Assembly: GCA_007135755.1 (NCBI GenBank)
Contig: SLIG01000002.1
Span: 1 to 42,501 of the forward strand
Source of the DNA: Cyanobium sp.
GTDB lineage: Bacteria; Cyanobacteriota; Cyanobacteriia; PCC-6307; Cyanobiaceae
Direction: 5' to 3'
DNA: 42,501 bases
Positions 17,777 through 28,223 of the stretch are shown one piece after another. How positions within the stretch are numbered: position 1 is the first letter of the stretch; every line of letters begins with the position of its first letter. The notes below the pieces were generated by a model. The model had not been told where the DNA came from, ran no database searches, and worked only from the letters and a program-made list of their open reading frames with translations. Made by a program: the position numbers and the translations under genes.

Positions 17777-18358
17777 CTAGTGCCGGGTTCGATCAGGTTG
17801 TCTGACGCCCAGATAGCCCCAGGCCGAGCTGAGAGCCAGCAGCAGGGACGGCCAGAACAGCCACCAGCCGAGCTGCTGGAGGAGGGGCGGCAGACCTCCC
17901 AGTTCAAGATCGGCGCCCCAGGTCGCCGGCCAGAGCAGCAGGAGCAGGCTGGCGAACTGCAGCACCGTCTTGGCTTTGCCAGTCAGGGACGCCGGCCCCC
18001 CGCCCGTGGCGCCGCTGCGCCAGCCGGAGATCAGCAGTTCCCGGGCCAGCAGCAGCCACACCGCCCAGAGCGGCAGCTGCTGGGGCCAGGCCGGCTGGGC
18101 GGCCAGCCAGAGCAGGGGGGCGGCGATCAGGATCTTGTCGGTGAGGGGATCGAGGCGGGCGCCCCATTCCGAGCCGCCGCCGGCGCGCCGGGCCAGCAGA
18201 CCATCGGCCCAGTCGCTGAGTCCGCCCAGCAGCAGCAGCCACCAGGCCAGGCCCGCCGCACCGCCGCTGAGGGCCAGGATCAGGGGCAGGCCGAGCAGGG
18301 CCCGACCCACGGTCAGCCCATCGGCCAGGCGGCGCAGTGGGGCTGGGGAGCGGCTCAC
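17777..18358 (-). CDS. pgsA: CDP-alcohol phosphatidyltransferase, PgsA-like
   Basis: 193 residues from a GTG start. The family signature DG-x2-AR-x8-G-x3-D-x3-D is complete in SDWADGLLARRAGG and GARLDPLTDKILIA. Several hydrophobic helices follow, including LLARELLISGWRSG. The size and signature suit phosphatidylglycerophosphate synthase, which makes the precursor of phosphatidylglycerol, an essential thylakoid lipid. A paralogue using another alcohol cannot be excluded. Its GTG overlaps the COQ4-like stop by 4 nt (18355-18358), so the two are coupled. Confidence 0.85.
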   Translation of the reverse strand: MSRSPAPLRRLADGLTVGRALLGLPLILALSGGAAGLAWWLLLLGGLSDWADGLLARRAGGGSEWGARLDPLTDKILIAAPLLWLAAQPAWPQQLPLWAVWLLLARELLISGWRSGATGGGPASLTGKAKTVLQFASLLLLLWPATWGADLELGGLPPLLQQLGWWLFWPSLLLALSSAWGYLGVRQPDRTRH

Positions 18359-19053
18359 GGCAGGGGGCCCAGCTGGCCGTCGAGGCCGTAGGGCTCGGCG
18401 TCAGCCGGGTCGCTGATGCCCAGCTCCTCGCGCCACTGGCGCACGGGCTTCTCCCAGCCCTCCTCCCACTTCACCGCCGCCAGGCACTGGGCCTGGCGGG
18501 CGATGGTGTGGCCATGGGCCTGGGCGGCACTGAGCAGGGGGAAGCGCTCCGGCTGGAAGCGGAAGGAAGCCAGCTGGCCGGCGCTGGTGAGCAGCACATA
18601 GCCGGGGAAGCCGATCTGGGCGGCGGTGATCGCCAGCACGCCGTTTTCTCCGGCCGTCTCGGTGCCGAAGCCGGCCACCACGTGGTGGATGTCATGGGTG
18701 GTGGCGATCCTCTGGGTGAGCCAGCGGTCGTCTGTGCTCACATCGCGGGGGCGGAAGAACGCGGGGTCGTAGCCCAGGGAGAGGATCAGGTCGGCGTAGC
18801 GGCGGCCGAGGCTGCCTGGCGGCAGCTGGCGCAGGCTGTCGATGTCCGGCTGCAGGGGGGGATAGCGCTGGCTGAGCATCTCCGCGCCGCCCGGAACGCC
18901 CTTGAAGCGTTCCACGCTGGCGGAGAGCTGGGGGCTGCCCAGAAAGTTGTCGATCAGGTCGGCGATGCTGCTGAGTTCGCCTCCGCTGCGGCCCACGGCC
19001 GCCAGCAGGCGCAGGTTGTTGGTGGCGCGCAGCGCCTCCTGGAAACGGCTCAT
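18355..19053 (-). CDS. COQ4-family protein
   Basis: 232 residues from the ATG at 19053 (MSRFQEALRATNNLRLL); the longer open frame upstream is Pro-rich and unlikely. The COQ4 signature HDxxHx11E is exact: His120-Asp121, His124 and Glu136 (HDIHHVVAGFGTETAGE). Flanking blocks RRYADLILSLGYDP and ITAAQIGFPGYVLL also fit. In eukaryotes and proteobacteria COQ4 acts in ubiquinone synthesis as a metal-binding scaffold or C1 decarboxylase-hydroxylase. Cyanobacteria make plastoquinone, so the role here is open. It overlaps pgsA by 4 nt. It is divergent from the CBS gene with a 191-nt gap (19054-19244) that should hold both promoters. Confidence 0.82.
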   Translation of the reverse strand: MSRFQEALRATNNLRLLAAVGRSGGELSSIADLIDNFLGSPQLSASVERFKGVPGGAEMLSQRYPPLQPDIDSLRQLPPGSLGRRYADLILSLGYDPAFFRPRDVSTDDRWLTQRIATTHDIHHVVAGFGTETAGENGVLAITAAQIGFPGYVLLTSAGQLASFRFQPERFPLLSAAQAHGHTIARQAQCLAAVKWEEGWEKPVRQWREELGISDPADAEPYGLDGQLGPLP

Positions 19054-19244
19054 CGGCTGGGGTGGGGTAGGAGCAGTTCGCTGTGGCCCGCAGAGCCCAG
19101 CTCCATTGCCGCGCAACTGGTGTGGGAAGGCCAGCAGGGGATCGATCAGCCGCAGCGTCACACCCCGGCTGGGCTCCCCATTGTGAAGGCGGCACCGGCC
19201 CAGTCCCAGAATGCCCCCACAGCCCTCCCGCTCCCCCAGCCGCC

Positions 19245-21907: not shown

Positions 21908-22013
21908 GGCAGTGGGCGCGCGGCGCTGAGCCTATGGGCACACCAGATCAGCCTGTGGGCACCCAACCTCTCCCCAGGGGCACACAATCGGAACAGCGGC
22001 GCGGACAGGGCGG

Positions 22014-24179
22014 ATGGCGGACACCGGCGGCAGCACCGATCCCGCTGTGACCAACCAGCAGGCTTGTCTGCTCAAGCTGGCGCCCCACCTGCTGGGCCGC
22101 ACCCGCCGCGGCGTGGTGGGCAGCAGCCGCTACGCCGAGCGCCTGCGGGAGGCGGTGCGCCGAGCTGCCGCCGACCCGGACGCCGGGCCGGTGCTGATCA
22201 GCGGCGAACCGGGCCTGGGCAAGGACAACCTGGCCGCCCTGATCCACTTCGGCAGCCCGCGCCGGCGGCGGCTGATGGCCCGCATCGACGCCGCCACCCT
22301 GGGCGATGACGGCGCCGCCCTGTTCGGCAGCGGCTCCAGCGGCGGTGACGGCTCCCTGCTCGACTGCCTCGGTGATGGTGCCCTGCTGATCGACAACCTC
22401 GATCGGGCCGATCCCCGCCTGCAGCCCCAGCTGCTGGAGCTGCTGCGCAGCGGGCGCTGGCGGGCGGCGGGGGCGGCCGGCCCCGAGCGCCTGTTCCGGG
22501 GCCGGCTGTTCTGCACCACCGAGTCGGCCCTGCCCGCGTTCGACGGCTGCGCCACCGTGATCCGGGTGCCGCCCCTGCGGGTGCGCCGCCAGGACCTGGG
22601 CGAATGGCTGCGCTATGGCCTCCGCCAGCAGGCGCGGGGGCTGGGCTGGAGCCGGCCGCCCCAGGTGAGCGAGGCGGTGGTGAAGCGGCTGCAGAGCCAC
22701 GACTTCCCCGGCAACCTGCAGGAGCTGGAGGGGCTGATCGAGCGGGCGCTGCGCCAGAGCGCCGCCGACAGCCCCAGCGATCTGCCGGCCGCGCTGCCGG
22801 CCACCCTGCCCGAGGAGGTGTTCTGGACCGGCTCGCGCGGGCTGCGGGCGCGCTTCGATCTCTGGCGCTGGAAGCCGCGGCTGCGCTTTGTGATGCGCTC
22901 GCCGCGGCTGTGGAACGCCCTGCTGTTCGGCCTGGTGAGCTGGGTGTTCGTGCTGGTCAACCTGTGGCTCTGGCTCGGTCCCCAGGACCGGGCCCACAAC
23001 GGCGGCCTGAACCTCTTCTGGGCCTGGTGGTGGCCCCTGATCCTGCTCGGCTACCCGCTGGTGGGGCGGCTGTGGTGCTCCTTCTGCCCGTTCATGGTGT
23101 GGGGGGAGATCAGCCAGCGCCTGGCCCGTGCCATCGGCTGGCGGCCGCGCCCCTGGCCCCGGGGCGACAGCGACCGCTGGGCGGCACCGCTGCTGGCGGC
23201 CGGATTCGCCCTGATCCTGCTCTGGGAGGAGGTGTGGAACCTGGAGAACACCGCCTGGCTGAGCAGTTGCCTGCTGCTGCTGATCACCGCCGGGGCGGTG
23301 CTGGGTTCGCTGACCTTCGAGAAGCGCTTCTGGTGCCGCCATCTCTGCCCGGTGGGGGGCATGAACGGCCTGTTCGCCAAGCTTTCGATCCTGGAACTGC
23401 GCGCCGAGGCCGGCACCTGCAGCGGCAGCTGCAGCACCTACGGCTGCTTCAAGGGCGGACCAGCCGTGGGCGAGGGCCTGGCCACGGCTGGCTGCCCCCT
23501 CGGCACCCATCCGGCCCACCTGGCCGACAACCGTGACTGCGTGCTCTGCCTCACCTGCGCGGCGGCCTGCCCCCATCGCTCGGTGCAGCTGCGCCTGCGC
23601 CCGCCCGCCGCCGACTTGCAGCGGGAGATGGAGCCACCGGCCGGAGAGGCCGGCCTGATCCTCGTGCTGGCCGGTGGCATCCCCCTGCACCACTGGCAGC
23701 GGCTGCTGGGCTGGCTGCCGCTGGCGCCGGCTTCGCTGCAGGAGGGCCCGCTGCTGCCGCGCCTGGCCATCGGCGCTCTGGCCCTGGCCACCCCCAGCCT
23801 GCTGTTCCTGCTCAGCCGGCCCCTGCTGGCCGCCCGCCAGCGGCGCCTGCTGCTCTACGCCCTGCTGCCCCTGCTCTGGGCGCTGCTGCTGGCCCGCCAC
23901 CTGCCTCTCGGCATGGCGGAGGCTGGCCGGGTGGTGGCGGTGAGCGTGGCGCCGTTGGGATCGGCCGTGCCGGCACTGCCGGCCTGGAGCGCCGACCCCC
24001 ACGTGATCGCCTTCTGCCAGAGCGCCGCGGTGCTGCTGGGGCTGGTGTGGGCGGCGGCGCTGGTGCGGCGGCTGTGGCCAGCGCCGCAGCTGCAGCTGGC
24101 CGGGCTGGGGGTGGCGCTGCTGCTGGCCGCCGGCGGGCGCTGGCTGGTGGCGGCACCGGCTGCGCTGATGCCGGGATAA
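22014..24179 (+). CDS. Degenerate sigma-54-activator AAA+ domain fused to a membrane polyferredoxin
   Basis: 721 residues. Residues 35-250 follow the NtrC-type AAA+ domain: Walker A GEPGLGKDN (64-72), a Walker B-like ALLIDNLD where the usual DE is DN, and FPGNLQELEGLIERAL near 231-246 (normally WPGNVRELxNxIER). The GAFTGA loop that contacts sigma-54 is missing. Residues 300-470 carry membrane helices with CSFCP (355-359) and CRHLCP (441-446), then C469/C473/C478/C494 and a classic 4Fe-4S set C509-x2-C-x2-C-x3-CP. More helices follow to the end. The second half resembles NapH/NosR/CcoG polyferredoxins, which move electrons across a membrane. Cyanobacteria have no sigma-54, so the AAA+ part probably has another role. 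Function unknown. Confidence 0.8.
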   Translation: MADTGGSTDPAVTNQQACLLKLAPHLLGRTRRGVVGSSRYAERLREAVRRAAADPDAGPVLISGEPGLGKDNLAALIHFGSPRRRRLMARIDAATLGDDGAALFGSGSSGGDGSLLDCLGDGALLIDNLDRADPRLQPQLLELLRSGRWRAAGAAGPERLFRGRLFCTTESALPAFDGCATVIRVPPLRVRRQDLGEWLRYGLRQQARGLGWSRPPQVSEAVVKRLQSHDFPGNLQELEGLIERALRQSAADSPSDLPAALPATLPEEVFWTGSRGLRARFDLWRWKPRLRFVMRSPRLWNALLFGLVSWVFVLVNLWLWLGPQDRAHNGGLNLFWAWWWPLILLGYPLVGRLWCSFCPFMVWGEISQRLARAIGWRPRPWPRGDSDRWAAPLLAAGFALILLWEEVWNLENTAWLSSCLLLLITAGAVLGSLTFEKRFWCRHLCPVGGMNGLFAKLSILELRAEAGTCSGSCSTYGCFKGGPAVGEGLATAGCPLGTHPAHLADNRDCVLCLTCAAACPHRSVQLRLRPPAADLQREMEPPAGEAGLILVLAGGIPLHHWQRLLGWLPLAPASLQEGPLLPRLAIGALALATPSLLFLLSRPLLAARQRRLLLYALLPLLWALLLARHLPLGMAEAGRVVAVSVAPLGSAVPALPAWSADPHVIAFCQSAAVLLGLVWAAALVRRLWPAPQLQLAGLGVALLLAAGGRWLVAAPAALMPG

Positions 24180-24210
24180 TGGAGTTCTGCCCCCTTCGGC
24201 CGCCGCTCCG

Positions 24211-24291
24211 ATGACCACCGCCCTGCTGATCGCCCTGGCCGCCTCCCTGGGGCTGATGGCCTACATCATCAAGCGCATGGAGCAGGCCTAG
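24211..24291 (+). CDS. Putative 26-aa single-span membrane protein
   Basis: ATG at 24211 gives MTTALLIALAASLGLMAYII and then KRMEQA before TAG. It is one hydrophobic helix with a short basic/acidic tail, the build of small photosynthetic-complex or regulatory membrane subunits. It lies 31 nt downstream of the polyferredoxin gene on the same strand and ends 4 nt into the convergent diguanylate cyclase stop region. I do not recognise it as a named Psb, Psa, Pet or Ndh subunit. No strong ribosome site is seen. Confidence 0.45.
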   Translation: MTTALLIALAASLGLMAYIIKRMEQA

Positions 24292-25465: not shown

Positions 25466-28063
25466 CTAGCAGGCCTCGGCCCGTTCTGCCTCGGTCCGCA
25501 GCCGCGCGATGCGCTCCAGCAGCGACTCGTTGCTCATGCGGTTGTTGAGCCGCTCGGCCAGCAGCGGGAAGGCCAGGGGCCCCGGCCTGGGGGTGCGCTC
25601 CAGCAGCAGGTGGCAGCCCAGCAGCCGCTCCATCGCCGAGCGGATGCGCGGCAGTTCCAGCTGCTCCTGCAGCACCTCACGCCGCGCCTGGGCCAGCAGC
25701 CGGTTGCCGGGCTCATGGCGGCAGAACACATCGAAGAGCAGGGCGGCACTGATCTGCAGCTGGCCGCCGCTGCGGCTCTGGCCGGGGTAGCCGTTGCGCA
25801 CCAGCCCGGCGATCTGGGCGATGGCGCGGAAGCGGCGGCGGCCCAGCTCCGAAAGGTTCACCGCCTGCTCCAGATCGGCCTCCAGGTGCTCCACGTCCAG
25901 CAGCCCGTCGCCATGCAGCTCGAACAGCTCCTCGAACGGGTAGCCGCGCGGCGCCAGCAGCTCGAACCCGTAGTCGTTCACTGACACCGTGATCGTGCTC
26001 GGCTGTTGGCGGGCCAGACGCCAGGCCCACAGGAAGCCCAGCCCCTCGTGCACGAAGCGCCCCTCGAAGGGATAGGCGTAGAGGTGGCTGCCCTCGCGGC
26101 TGCGGCACACCTCCACCAGGAATTCATCCCGGCGGGGCAGGCGCGAGAGTTCGGCCTGGCGGCGCAGCAGGGGTTCGAGGGCCCGCAGCTCCGGTGTGTC
26201 CAGCCCCGTGTCGACATGGGCATCGGCGTCGTCCTGCCCCGGTCCGGCAGCAAGGGCGCGGGCGCAGCGGTCGACCTCGGCCCGCAGTCCCTCGCTGAGC
26301 AGATCGGAGAGGGCCATCTGGCCGCCGGCCCAGGCCGGCACCGCCGAACTCTTCTTCGTGGTGGCCTTCACCTGGGCGGTCATCTCGCGCAGACGCACAA
26401 ACTCCAGCTGGCGGCCGGCGAAGAAGAACACATCGCCCGGTTTGAGTCGGGAGATGAAGGTCTCCTCCACGTGGCCCAGCACGGCCCCGCGCACGAAGCG
26501 CACCGTCACAGCCCGTTCGGCGGTGATCGTGCCGATGTGCAGCCGGTGCAGGCGGGCGACCGCCTTGTCGCGCACCACGTAGCGGAACCCGTCGCAGGCG
26601 GGCTCGCGCTCCAGCTTGCGGTAGCGGGGGTAGGCCCCCAGGCACTCGCCGCCCTCCTCGAGGAAGCGCAGGCACCACTGCCAGTCGCCTGGGCTGAGGC
26701 CGCGGAAGCTCCAGGCGCTGCGCACCGTGGCCCACTCCCGTTCCGGCTCGAAGCCCGGGCCGCAGGCCAGGCTGGTGAGGTGCTGGAGCAGCACGTCGAG
26801 CGGCGCCTGGGGCGGCCGGCGCGTTTCCACCAGCCCCTGCGCCAGGCCGCGGCGCATGGCGCTCACCTCCAGCAGCTCCAGGGCGTGGGTGGGCATGAAC
26901 AGCACCTGGGAGGTGCCACCGGGGCAGTGGGCGCTGCGGCCGGCCCGCTGCAGCAGCCGGGCCAGGTTCTTGGCCGAGCCGATCTGCACCACCCGCTCCA
27001 CCGGCTGGAAGTCGACCCCCAGATCCAGGGAGCTGGTGCACACCACCCAGCGCATCGCCCCCCCCTTCACCGCCGCCTCGATCGCCTCCCGTTCGGCGCG
27101 GTCGATGGCGCTGTGGTGCAGGGCGAGGGCCCCGTCCATCTCCGGGCAGGCGTAGCGCAGGCACTGGTGCCAGCGCTCGGCCTGGTTGCGGGTGTTGGTG
27201 AACAGCAGGGTGCTCACGGCCGGATCGAGGGCGGCCACCAGCTCCTCGTACATGCGCAGGCCCAGGTGGCCGGCCCAGGGGAAGCCGTCGATGGTTTCGG
27301 GCAGCAGGCTGCGGATGGCGGTGGGACGCTCGATGGCGGCGCGGATGATCAGGGGCTCGGGGTCGCCTCCGCTGGCCGCCCCCGCCGGCAGCCCCACCGC
27401 CGCCCGGGCGGCCTCCTCGAGGTTGCCGATGGTGGCGCTGATCGCCCAGGTGCGCAGCGCCGGCCGCAACCGCCGCAGCCAGCTCAGGCAGAGCTCGGCC
27501 TGGCTCCCGCGCTTGCTGCCCAGCAGCTCGTGCCACTCGTCGAGCACCACGCAGTGAAGCTGGCCGAACAGCTCCGGAGCCCGGGGATTGGCCAGCAGCA
27601 GCGACAGCGACTCGGGGGTGGTGATCAGGATCTCGGGGGGGCGGCGCAGCTGCCGGGTGCGTTCGCTGCTGGCGGTGTCGCCGTTGCGGATCGCCACCCG
27701 CAGCGGCCAGCCCATGGCCTCGATCGGCTGGCGGATCGCCAGGGCCAGATCCCGGCTCAGGGCCCGCAGCGGGGTGATGTAGAGCAGCCGCAGCCCCGCC
27801 GGGCTCCCCTCCTTCGCCGCCGCCTCGTCCTCAGCGAGCAGCTCGGCGATCGGGCCCATCACCGCGGCGTAGGTTTTGCCCGAGCCGGTGGGCACCTGGA
27901 TCAGGCCGCTGCGGCCCGCCAGGTAGGCCTGCCAGCACTGCCGCTGGAAGACCAGGGGCTCCCAGCCCTGCCGTGCGAACCAGGCTTCGATCGGAGCCAG
28001 CACCGCGGCGCTGCCCCGCTTCGCCGTCAGGCCCCGATCTGCCATCAAGGCCGGCTTCGCCAT
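25466..28063 (-). CDS. Lhr-like ligase-associated DEXH box helicase
   Basis: 865 residues from the ATG at 28063 (28045 is also possible; the frame extends upstream without an ATG). Helicase motifs: Walker A VPTGSGKTYAAV, TPLRALSRDLA (Ia), LDEWHEL (II), SATIGN (III), TSSLDLGVDF (V) and QRAGRSAHCPGG (VI). A long C-terminal Lhr-type region follows. It belongs to the 3'-5' helicases found with ATP-dependent DNA ligase, PdeM and an MBL exonuclease in bacterial DNA repair. It is the only gene of that set here without a close repair neighbour. Confidence 0.9.
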   Translation of the reverse strand: MAKPALMADRGLTAKRGSAAVLAPIEAWFARQGWEPLVFQRQCWQAYLAGRSGLIQVPTGSGKTYAAVMGPIAELLAEDEAAAKEGSPAGLRLLYITPLRALSRDLALAIRQPIEAMGWPLRVAIRNGDTASSERTRQLRRPPEILITTPESLSLLLANPRAPELFGQLHCVVLDEWHELLGSKRGSQAELCLSWLRRLRPALRTWAISATIGNLEEAARAAVGLPAGAASGGDPEPLIIRAAIERPTAIRSLLPETIDGFPWAGHLGLRMYEELVAALDPAVSTLLFTNTRNQAERWHQCLRYACPEMDGALALHHSAIDRAEREAIEAAVKGGAMRWVVCTSSLDLGVDFQPVERVVQIGSAKNLARLLQRAGRSAHCPGGTSQVLFMPTHALELLEVSAMRRGLAQGLVETRRPPQAPLDVLLQHLTSLACGPGFEPEREWATVRSAWSFRGLSPGDWQWCLRFLEEGGECLGAYPRYRKLEREPACDGFRYVVRDKAVARLHRLHIGTITAERAVTVRFVRGAVLGHVEETFISRLKPGDVFFFAGRQLEFVRLREMTAQVKATTKKSSAVPAWAGGQMALSDLLSEGLRAEVDRCARALAAGPGQDDADAHVDTGLDTPELRALEPLLRRQAELSRLPRRDEFLVEVCRSREGSHLYAYPFEGRFVHEGLGFLWAWRLARQQPSTITVSVNDYGFELLAPRGYPFEELFELHGDGLLDVEHLEADLEQAVNLSELGRRRFRAIAQIAGLVRNGYPGQSRSGGQLQISAALLFDVFCRHEPGNRLLAQARREVLQEQLELPRIRSAMERLLGCHLLLERTPRPGPLAFPLLAERLNNRMSNESLLERIARLRTEAERAEAC

Positions 28064-28223
28064 CAGGCCCCGCGTGCACTCAACCGACTTCCTGCTCAAT
28101 GATGCGCCAGTTGGCGGCCGCGCCGATTCCCCCGCTGCCCTGGCTCCGCTGCCTCCCTGCCAACCCTCCCTGCTGCGCGTTCTGCATGGAGCGATGCTGC
28201 TGCTGGTGCCGCCCGCCAGGGCC
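28064..28223. other. Intergenic gap, no feature recognised
   Basis: 160 nt between the helicase start and the end of the DUF350 gene. I see no gene, hairpin or promoter that can be supported. The helicase promoter should lie here. Confidence 0.4.

Follow-up and report, generated by a model that had tools for sequence, protein, structure and literature searches.

The window, i.e., the whole stretch of 42,501 nucleotides of Cyanobium DNA analysed here, contains on its forward strand an open reading frame that begins with ATG, has zero internal stops and encodes a protein of 721 residues, in which an AAA+ domain of the sigma-54-activator type is joined to a membrane polyferredoxin (Table 1). An antisense open reading frame (21948-24218, 756 aa) is longer than the fusion frame, but the homologues favour the forward one. 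With Pfam, the protein (the window protein hereafter) matches Sigma54_activat at residues 35-173 (6e-10) and AAA_lid_14 at residues 189-261 (3e-08), and Fer4_5 is matched in two stretches, the best being residues 422-457 (5.2e-08). The membrane part, at about residues 298-712, has two Cys pairs and eight clustered Cys. The AF2 model of the window protein has a mean pLDDT of 81.1 and a pTM of 0.62.

Table 1. Features of the fusion gene and of the adjacent microprotein gene, in window coordinates
Feature	Residues or motif	Position	Strand	Basis or remark
Whole open reading frame, pseudo-AAA+ domain and membrane polyferredoxin	721 aa	22014..24179	+	ORF list, translation, homologues
AAA+ domain, sigma-54-activator type	34-262	22113..22799	+	Pfam, PDB sequence matches, fold
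Walker A	GEPGLGKDN, 64-72	22203..22229	+	family alignment
Walker B, catalytic Glu replaced by Asn	ALLIDNLD, 123-130	22380..22403	+	family alignment
PGNLQEL helix	DFPGNLQEL, 230-238	22701..22727	+	translation, PDB matches, family alignment
Transmembrane helices 1-4	298-434	22905..23315	+	AF2 secondary structure, hydropathy, loop charge
First Cys pair	C355-x2-C358-P	23076..23087	+	alignments
Second Cys pair	C441-x3-C445-P	23334..23348	+	alignments
Eight clustered Cys	469, 473, 478, 494, 509, 512, 515, 519	23418..23570	+	conservation, sidedness; cluster binding predicted
C-terminal five transmembrane helices	543-712	23640..24149	+	AF2, hydropathy, loop charge
Microprotein, single helix	MTTALL...KRMEQA, 26 residues	24211-24291	+	31 bases past the stop of the fusion gene

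The fusion of an AAA+ domain to a membrane polyferredoxin, as claimed in the original prediction, is confirmed by the single intact frame of 721 residues, the Pfam matches and the fold of the AF2 model. The possibility that the domain boundary is a frameshift joining two genes was checked and rejected, because the fusion, in one conserved reading frame, recurs in 163 distinct cyanobacterial members and is constant throughout the family. It is noted that the copy in one related genome (G007) is itself matched as two overlapping pieces and looks broken. In comparisons of the window gene with six relatives, the AAA+ part gives dN/dS values of 0.20-0.42 against five of them and of 0.75 against the most distant one, and the Fe-S stretch gives 0-0.16, the lowest among five regions in all six comparisons; judged from these ratios, the AAA+ part is still under purifying selection. 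The fusion is thus real and conserved, with known parts in a new or unusual architecture.

The microprotein is found as one copy each in 19 of the 40 related genomes, including all 13 of the genus (the own genome included), with weaker matches, at E 3.5e-5 to 0.0096, in G013, G021, G022 and G023, all of which are without the fusion gene. That it is an obligate subunit was rejected, since it has matches also in relatives without the fusion gene; it is probably a separate, unannotated small membrane protein. Elsewhere in the window, at 18358-19161 on the reverse strand, a Coq4-like protein (PF05019, 6.1e-18), of a ubiquinone-pathway family, is encoded in this cyanobacterium.

The AAA+ domain and the regulator label

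In the AF2 model, residues 29-273 align with the AAA+ domain of FleQ with a Z of 19.7 and an rmsd of 2.8 over 226 aligned residues, so that structure prediction of the full chain bears out the assignment of the domain. The PF00158 score of the window protein is 39.5 bits against a cut-off of 20.2, and four further PF00158 matches in the own genome score 20.5-32.1 bits in frames of 669-957 aa. With phmmer, 34 distinct PDB sequences are matched at E <= 0.1 (best E 3e-17), being by name NtrC-type activators (NifA, PspF, LuxO, FleQ and the like), and the alignment to PspF has gaps at the position of GAFTGA and at the segment preceding V-P-P-L-R.

All motif claims of the original prediction, i.e., that Walker A is present, that Walker B reads DN, that GAFTGA is missing and that the PGNLQEL helix is retained, are right according to the sequence and the family alignment. 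The Walker-B Glu occurs in none of the 163 members, the second position being Q, K, N, G, C, R or H. Neither GAFTGA nor a relaxed form of the pattern is found in any of the 163, so no homologue with an intact GAFTGA, which would have spoken for a working activator, is present among them. The DFPGNLQEL helix, which we take to be the sensor-II helix of sigma-54 activators, has Gln at residue 236 in the window protein, where many relatives have Arg.

The P-loop is more variable. Its Lys is present in 163 of 163 members, and the last Gly (residue 69) is Glu in 99 of them (76/82 picocyanobacterial, 23/52 other clade I and 0/29 clade II members) and is retained in 60 (5/82, 26/52 and 29/29, respectively). 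The intact P-loop of the window protein, one of the five in the picocyanobacterial clade that keep Gly, is thus a minority state there; in clade II the P-loop reads G-[ST]-G-K-T in 29 of 29. Parsimony on a FastTree tree rooted on clade II, in which a duplicate (L021) was included, gives Gly at the root, Glu at the picocyanobacterial base and at least 13 changes, from which it is deduced that Gly69 of the window protein was probably regained. The proposal that the domain serves as a nucleotide sensor is therefore weakened for the family at large, because residue 69 is Glu in 99 of 163 members and the Walker-B Glu is never present, and it may still apply to the 60 members that keep Gly.

No partner sigma factor was found. 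The sigma-54 core-binding domain PF04963 is matched in 0 of 242 genomes of the class, with 4 of 14 controls positive; PF04552 has no match in the own genome and is matched in 4 of the 242, over 33-41 positions and with one match over the curated cut-off, again with 4 of 14 controls positive. A sigma-54 gene, which would have favoured a role as regulator, is thus missing from the own genome, and from all 242 by PF04963. This is consistent with a 2011 survey, which states that sigma-54 and its activators are absent from all 29 cyanobacteria considered (PMC3162934); in a 2025 survey two cyanobacterial exceptions are named (PMC12316311).

Compared with the enhancer-binding proteins (PspF, NtrC, NifA, NtrX, FleQ), the window protein shares the central AAA+ fold and has an intact P-loop, but it is without GAFTGA, the Walker-B Glu and a DNA-binding domain, its genome is without sigma-54, and in the alignment to PspF the stretch ahead of V-P-P-L-R is shortened. 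Most enhancer-binding proteins have a C-terminal DNA-binding domain; in the window protein no HTH family is present among the Pfam matches at E <= 1, and the AAA+ lid leads into the membrane part. The AAA+ fold apart, the window protein does not belong with the enhancer-binding proteins. It is most unlikely that such proteins act as sigma-54 regulators, and the regulator label is unsupported.

The label is nevertheless found in annotations. A protein of the paralogue clade (clade II) from Aulosira is annotated 'nitrogen assimilation regulatory protein', and so is slr1529, a putative Synechocystis homologue of the fusion family; the shared product name is only suggestive of homology. The slr1529 gene is listed under that name in PMC3516471 and PMC4182526, and its deletion mutant belongs to a group of six in which metabolites had changed most strongly by 72 h (PMC5318462). 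Another candidate homologue, slr2059 (Fed9), was dropped, being a two-[4Fe-4S] ferredoxin according to passages of PMC4284462 and PMC8887894. A search covering CC-licensed PMC papers yielded no paper on the AAA+/polyferredoxin fusion or its function.

The membrane polyferredoxin and its relatives

The 'many helices' and 'several Cys clusters' noticed originally correspond to nine transmembrane stretches, assigned from the AF2 helices with borders set by hand, and to 12 family-conserved Cys. These 12 are invariant in 162 of 163 members, the remaining one having X at two sites, and all 12 are kept in 29 of 29 members of clade II. From their conservation and placement, the eight clustered Cys are predicted to be the ligands of two cytoplasmic [4Fe-4S] clusters. 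Four of these Cys form one canonical C-x2-C-x2-C-x3-CP motif, and the other four are conserved with the odd spacing C-x3-C-x4-C plus a distant GCP; PF00037 and PF13237 are both under their cut-offs on the window protein, and pLDDT of the Fe-S loop is below 50.

With the AAA+ domain placed inside, K+R of the inside loops is 25.3 on average versus 2.3 for the outside ones, the inside loops being longer, and per residue it is 0.13 versus 0.05. By this pattern the two Cys pairs as well as the eight clustered Cys would be cytoplasmic, and it is supportive only, because the helix borders were set by hand. The loop charges thus agree with an Fe-S stretch that shares its side of the membrane with the AAA+ domain.

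Among solved structures no relative of the membrane part was found: the best sequence-profile match is to a PAPS-reductase beta-subunit (E 0.016, 53 positions), the best Foldseek match has E 1.1, and the best VIA-align match has Z 5.8 and rmsd 6.9 over 146 aligned residues. The absent structural match is no proof of a new fold.

Relatives of the membrane part standing alone are present outside Cyanobacteria. In Deinococcus ficus, a protein of 452 aa annotated '4Fe-4S binding protein' has all 12 Cys, with the second pair as C-x3-CF and without an AAA+ or cyclic-nucleotide-type domain. More distant homologues lie on haloarchaeal plasmids, where four matches cover 69-75% of the Deinococcus protein at 24-25% identity; in three records no shared neighbour pointing to a function was found. 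Since the module exists there without the regulator domain, the two would have been joined in Cyanobacteria or an ancestor.

As regards known membrane modules, the NCBIfam NapH/MauN model matches residues 349-526 (1.5e-10), but the score of 41 bits falls far short of the curated cut-off of 213.05 for NapH (TIGR02163); by this score the window protein does not qualify as NapH proper. As described in PMC5928378, NapH, NosR and RdhC share a membrane module with two CX3CP motifs, which is needed for the integrity of NapH and the activity of NosZ, and the membrane segments of NapH are proposed there as a quinol-oxidising domain. The window protein resembles this module in its membrane helices, two Cys-Pro pairs and C-terminal 4Fe-4S-type Cys. 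It differs in having one C-x3-C-P and one C-x2-C-P in place of two C-x3-C-P, about nine helices instead of four, the AAA+ domain where the flavin domain would be, and a first Fe-S motif of C-x3-C-x4-C plus a distant GCP. No nap, nos or rdh gene is present among the annotated or scanned neighbours.

The other known relative in kind is CcoG, a polyferredoxin-type membrane protein with Fe-S clusters, with which the window protein shares this general character and from which it differs by the AAA+ fusion and the extra C-terminal helices; among the scanned neighbours there is no cbb3-type gene. CcoG is a cupric reductase (PMC8456105), and one may thus conceive the window protein as a metal reductase that serves in metal supply or detoxification by passing electrons via Fe-S to cytoplasmic Cu(II) or Fe(III). 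This would agree with the location of the Deinococcus homologue, which has DUF305 and DUF3105 genes near it and a gene for a heavy-metal P-type ATPase at a distance of about 10 kb, and with the repression of slr1529 at high copper (PMC4182526). By contrast, no metal genes recur beside the cyanobacterial gene in shared clusters, slr1529 is only a putative member of the family, and no CcoG model appears among 25 of the 29 NCBIfam matches, those listed. We regard the metal reductase as quite improbable.

Distribution, architecture and neighbourhood of the family

The fusion gene is matched in 25 of 40 related genomes, the own one included, with all 12 other genomes of the same genus among them, and it has no match in the other 15; the named relatives at 86-94% identity, among the best 80 of 390 encoding stretches, are Cyanobium genomes. 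In the class sample, a longer relative (L018) as query matches 204 of 242 genomes at E <= 1e-3, some of them weakly and probably through unrelated proteins, and a paralogue as query matches 164 of 242 at E <= 1e-120, with the window's own clade left out. In the phylum-wide sample 73 of 292 are matched at E <= 1e-30, all in the window's class, with the share of the 292 outside the class not shown. In a plasmid collection, two copies with a query coverage of 80% or more were found, and both come from cyanobacteria. A further copy, with 71% identity to the window protein, lies in L058, a record whose title, Bifidobacterium breve MAG, is probably mistaken.

The 163 distinct aligned members comprise 82 picocyanobacterial, 52 other clade-I and 29 clade-II sequences, and clade II is monophyletic with support 1.0 (FastTree). 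Ahead of the AAA+ domain, PF00027 is above its cut-off in all three relatives that were scanned, namely L018, L020 and the Aulosira paralogue, whereas the window protein has no cyclic-nucleotide-type domain in Pfam. Such an additional domain at the N-terminus is the rule among relatives outside the window's clade. Among the matches listed from other families to the 845-residue L018, nearly all span from its first residues; 13 of those listed begin at residue 112-142, in frames of 726-777 aa, where the N-terminal domain is seemingly lost. At least 120 residues precede the AAA+ start in 51 of 52 non-picocyanobacterial clade-I members, 29 of 29 clade-II members and 13 of 82 picocyanobacterial ones, these being lengths of open frames, irrespective of the presence of the domain and with calling weakened by long antisense frames. 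The window protein seems to start within the stretch that forms the linker in its longer relatives. In L149 (7143-10508, 1121 aa) the AAA+ domain occurs twice in tandem, as seen by eye, in one frame with a cyclic-nucleotide-type domain and the polyferredoxin, and two further genomes of that genus have frames of like length. The N-terminal half is thus plastic, with a domain missing or doubled, and the membrane part is constant.

No partner gene recurs across clade I in 45 loci; long antisense frames weaken the calling of open reading frames there, with even the family gene called in just 44 of 50 loci. Picocyanobacteria show local synteny, in that 8 of 16 loci have an Lhr-type helicase gene (Pfam; 25466-28099 in the window) on the opposite strand, 0.6-4.7 kb downstream, and a PALP gene is present, outside the clade-II position, in the clade-I loci L156 (opposite strand, 1.2 kb) and L162 (4.3 kb).

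In clade II, represented by L138, L139, L170-L172 and L211-L230 with two copies on named plasmids, a PALP enzyme is encoded in 19 of 24 loci; in 18 of them its gene follows on the same strand, no more than 1.2 kb downstream, and in one it lies 6.9 kb upstream. The two named plasmid records give this enzyme as cysteine synthase or cysK; the first of them is among the 24 loci, and the second is counted only as L220, a record of equal length. Rarer neighbours are Rieske, psbA-type and NUDIX genes (6 of 24 each), Pyr_redox_2 and YgaP-like genes (5 each) and rhodanese, DUF302 and ArsR genes (4 each), the psbA-type one in L138 being annotated photosystem Q(B) protein. Note that these counts are not independent, because some loci come from one genus. 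We read this mix, from the gene content, as a redox and sulfur, or sulfide, setting; it is described in no paper found, PMC8002359 included.

The psbA-type and Rieske genes would also suit a factor that assembles or repairs other Fe-S or photosynthetic complexes and in which the AAA+ domain acts as a chaperone-like platform adjoining the cytoplasmic Fe-S Cys. Against this, the gene is unmatched in the 15 related genomes mentioned above, presumably all photosynthetic, and its catalytic residues are lost, unlike in working AAA+ chaperones. Such a factor is very unlikely.

Another possibility is a membrane redox or Fe-S sensor, where the polyferredoxin senses redox state, sulfide or a metal and thereby reshapes the AAA+ part, to which a regulator or an enzyme would be bound, with a regulatory output and no bulk electron flow. 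The purifying selection on the AAA+ part, the ArsR-type and sulfide-type genes near part of the clade-II loci, and the nucleotide binding that may persist in clade II with its uniform P-loop are in its favour. However, no DNA-binding domain is matched and there is no sigma-54; the window protein lacks any cyclic-nucleotide-type domain; and where this domain is present its presumed ligand sites, placed by hand, mostly differ from the expected Glu and Arg. In the 52 clade-I rows the Glu site is Ser, Ala or Thr in 51 and a gap in one, with Arg at the Arg site in 5, and in the 29 of clade II the Glu site is Glu in 10, Asp in 16 and Asn in 3, with Arg in none. The sensor is possible, though we think it rather unlikely.

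Proposed function and its meaning

We propose a membrane electron carrier like NapH, NosR or CcoG, with cytoplasmic Fe-S and with the presumably dead AAA+ domain as a docking, oligomerisation or gating platform, to which we give an even chance. In the model, electrons would be traded along the helices bearing the C-x2-CP and C-x3-CP pairs, between the two predicted cytoplasmic [4Fe-4S] clusters and a carrier within or at the membrane, for which the plastoquinone pool is the likeliest candidate. The standard potentials make electron flow from quinol to low-potential cytoplasmic clusters uphill, and the reverse flow, from ferredoxin to quinone, would thus be energetically easier and more plausible. 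The AAA+ domain, of sigma-54-activator descent, would no longer hydrolyse ATP or contact sigma-54 and may serve as the platform for a soluble partner.

The carrier is supported by the near-invariant 12 Cys, the NapH/MauN match, the lowest dN/dS in the Fe-S stretch and the lost AAA+ catalytic residues; by the absence of sigma-54, the loop charges and the plastic N-terminal half versus the constant membrane part; and by the cysK-type gene beside the paralogue clade in 18 of 24 loci, which suggests a redox and sulfur setting. It is weakened by the NapH score below the cut-off, the C-x2-CP pair, the non-canonical first Fe-S motif, the low pLDDT of the Fe-S loop, the lack of a recurring clade-I partner gene and the lack of a solved relative of the membrane part. 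The earlier proposal of a membrane redox device using an old regulator domain as a putative platform fits the conservation. A more specific form, in which a dead AAA+ ring gates the polyferredoxin as a ferredoxin:plastoquinone or sulfur-linked electron valve and a sulfide-tolerance paralogue feeds CysK with reduced sulfur, is speculative and has a slim chance.

Finally, we note that the protein is a regulator by name and probably a redox machine in fact, with the old regulator part now only holding or gating. The family, present in most of the sampled cyanobacteria (164 of 242 by the paralogue query), has a regulator-type annotation in a relative of the paralogue clade. If the redox reading is true, the family has been wrongly counted in transcription-factor surveys, and an electron-transfer module conserved in a model photosynthetic lineage is still without an assigned function; the paralogue beside the cysK-type gene offers a direct handle on a possible sulfide link.
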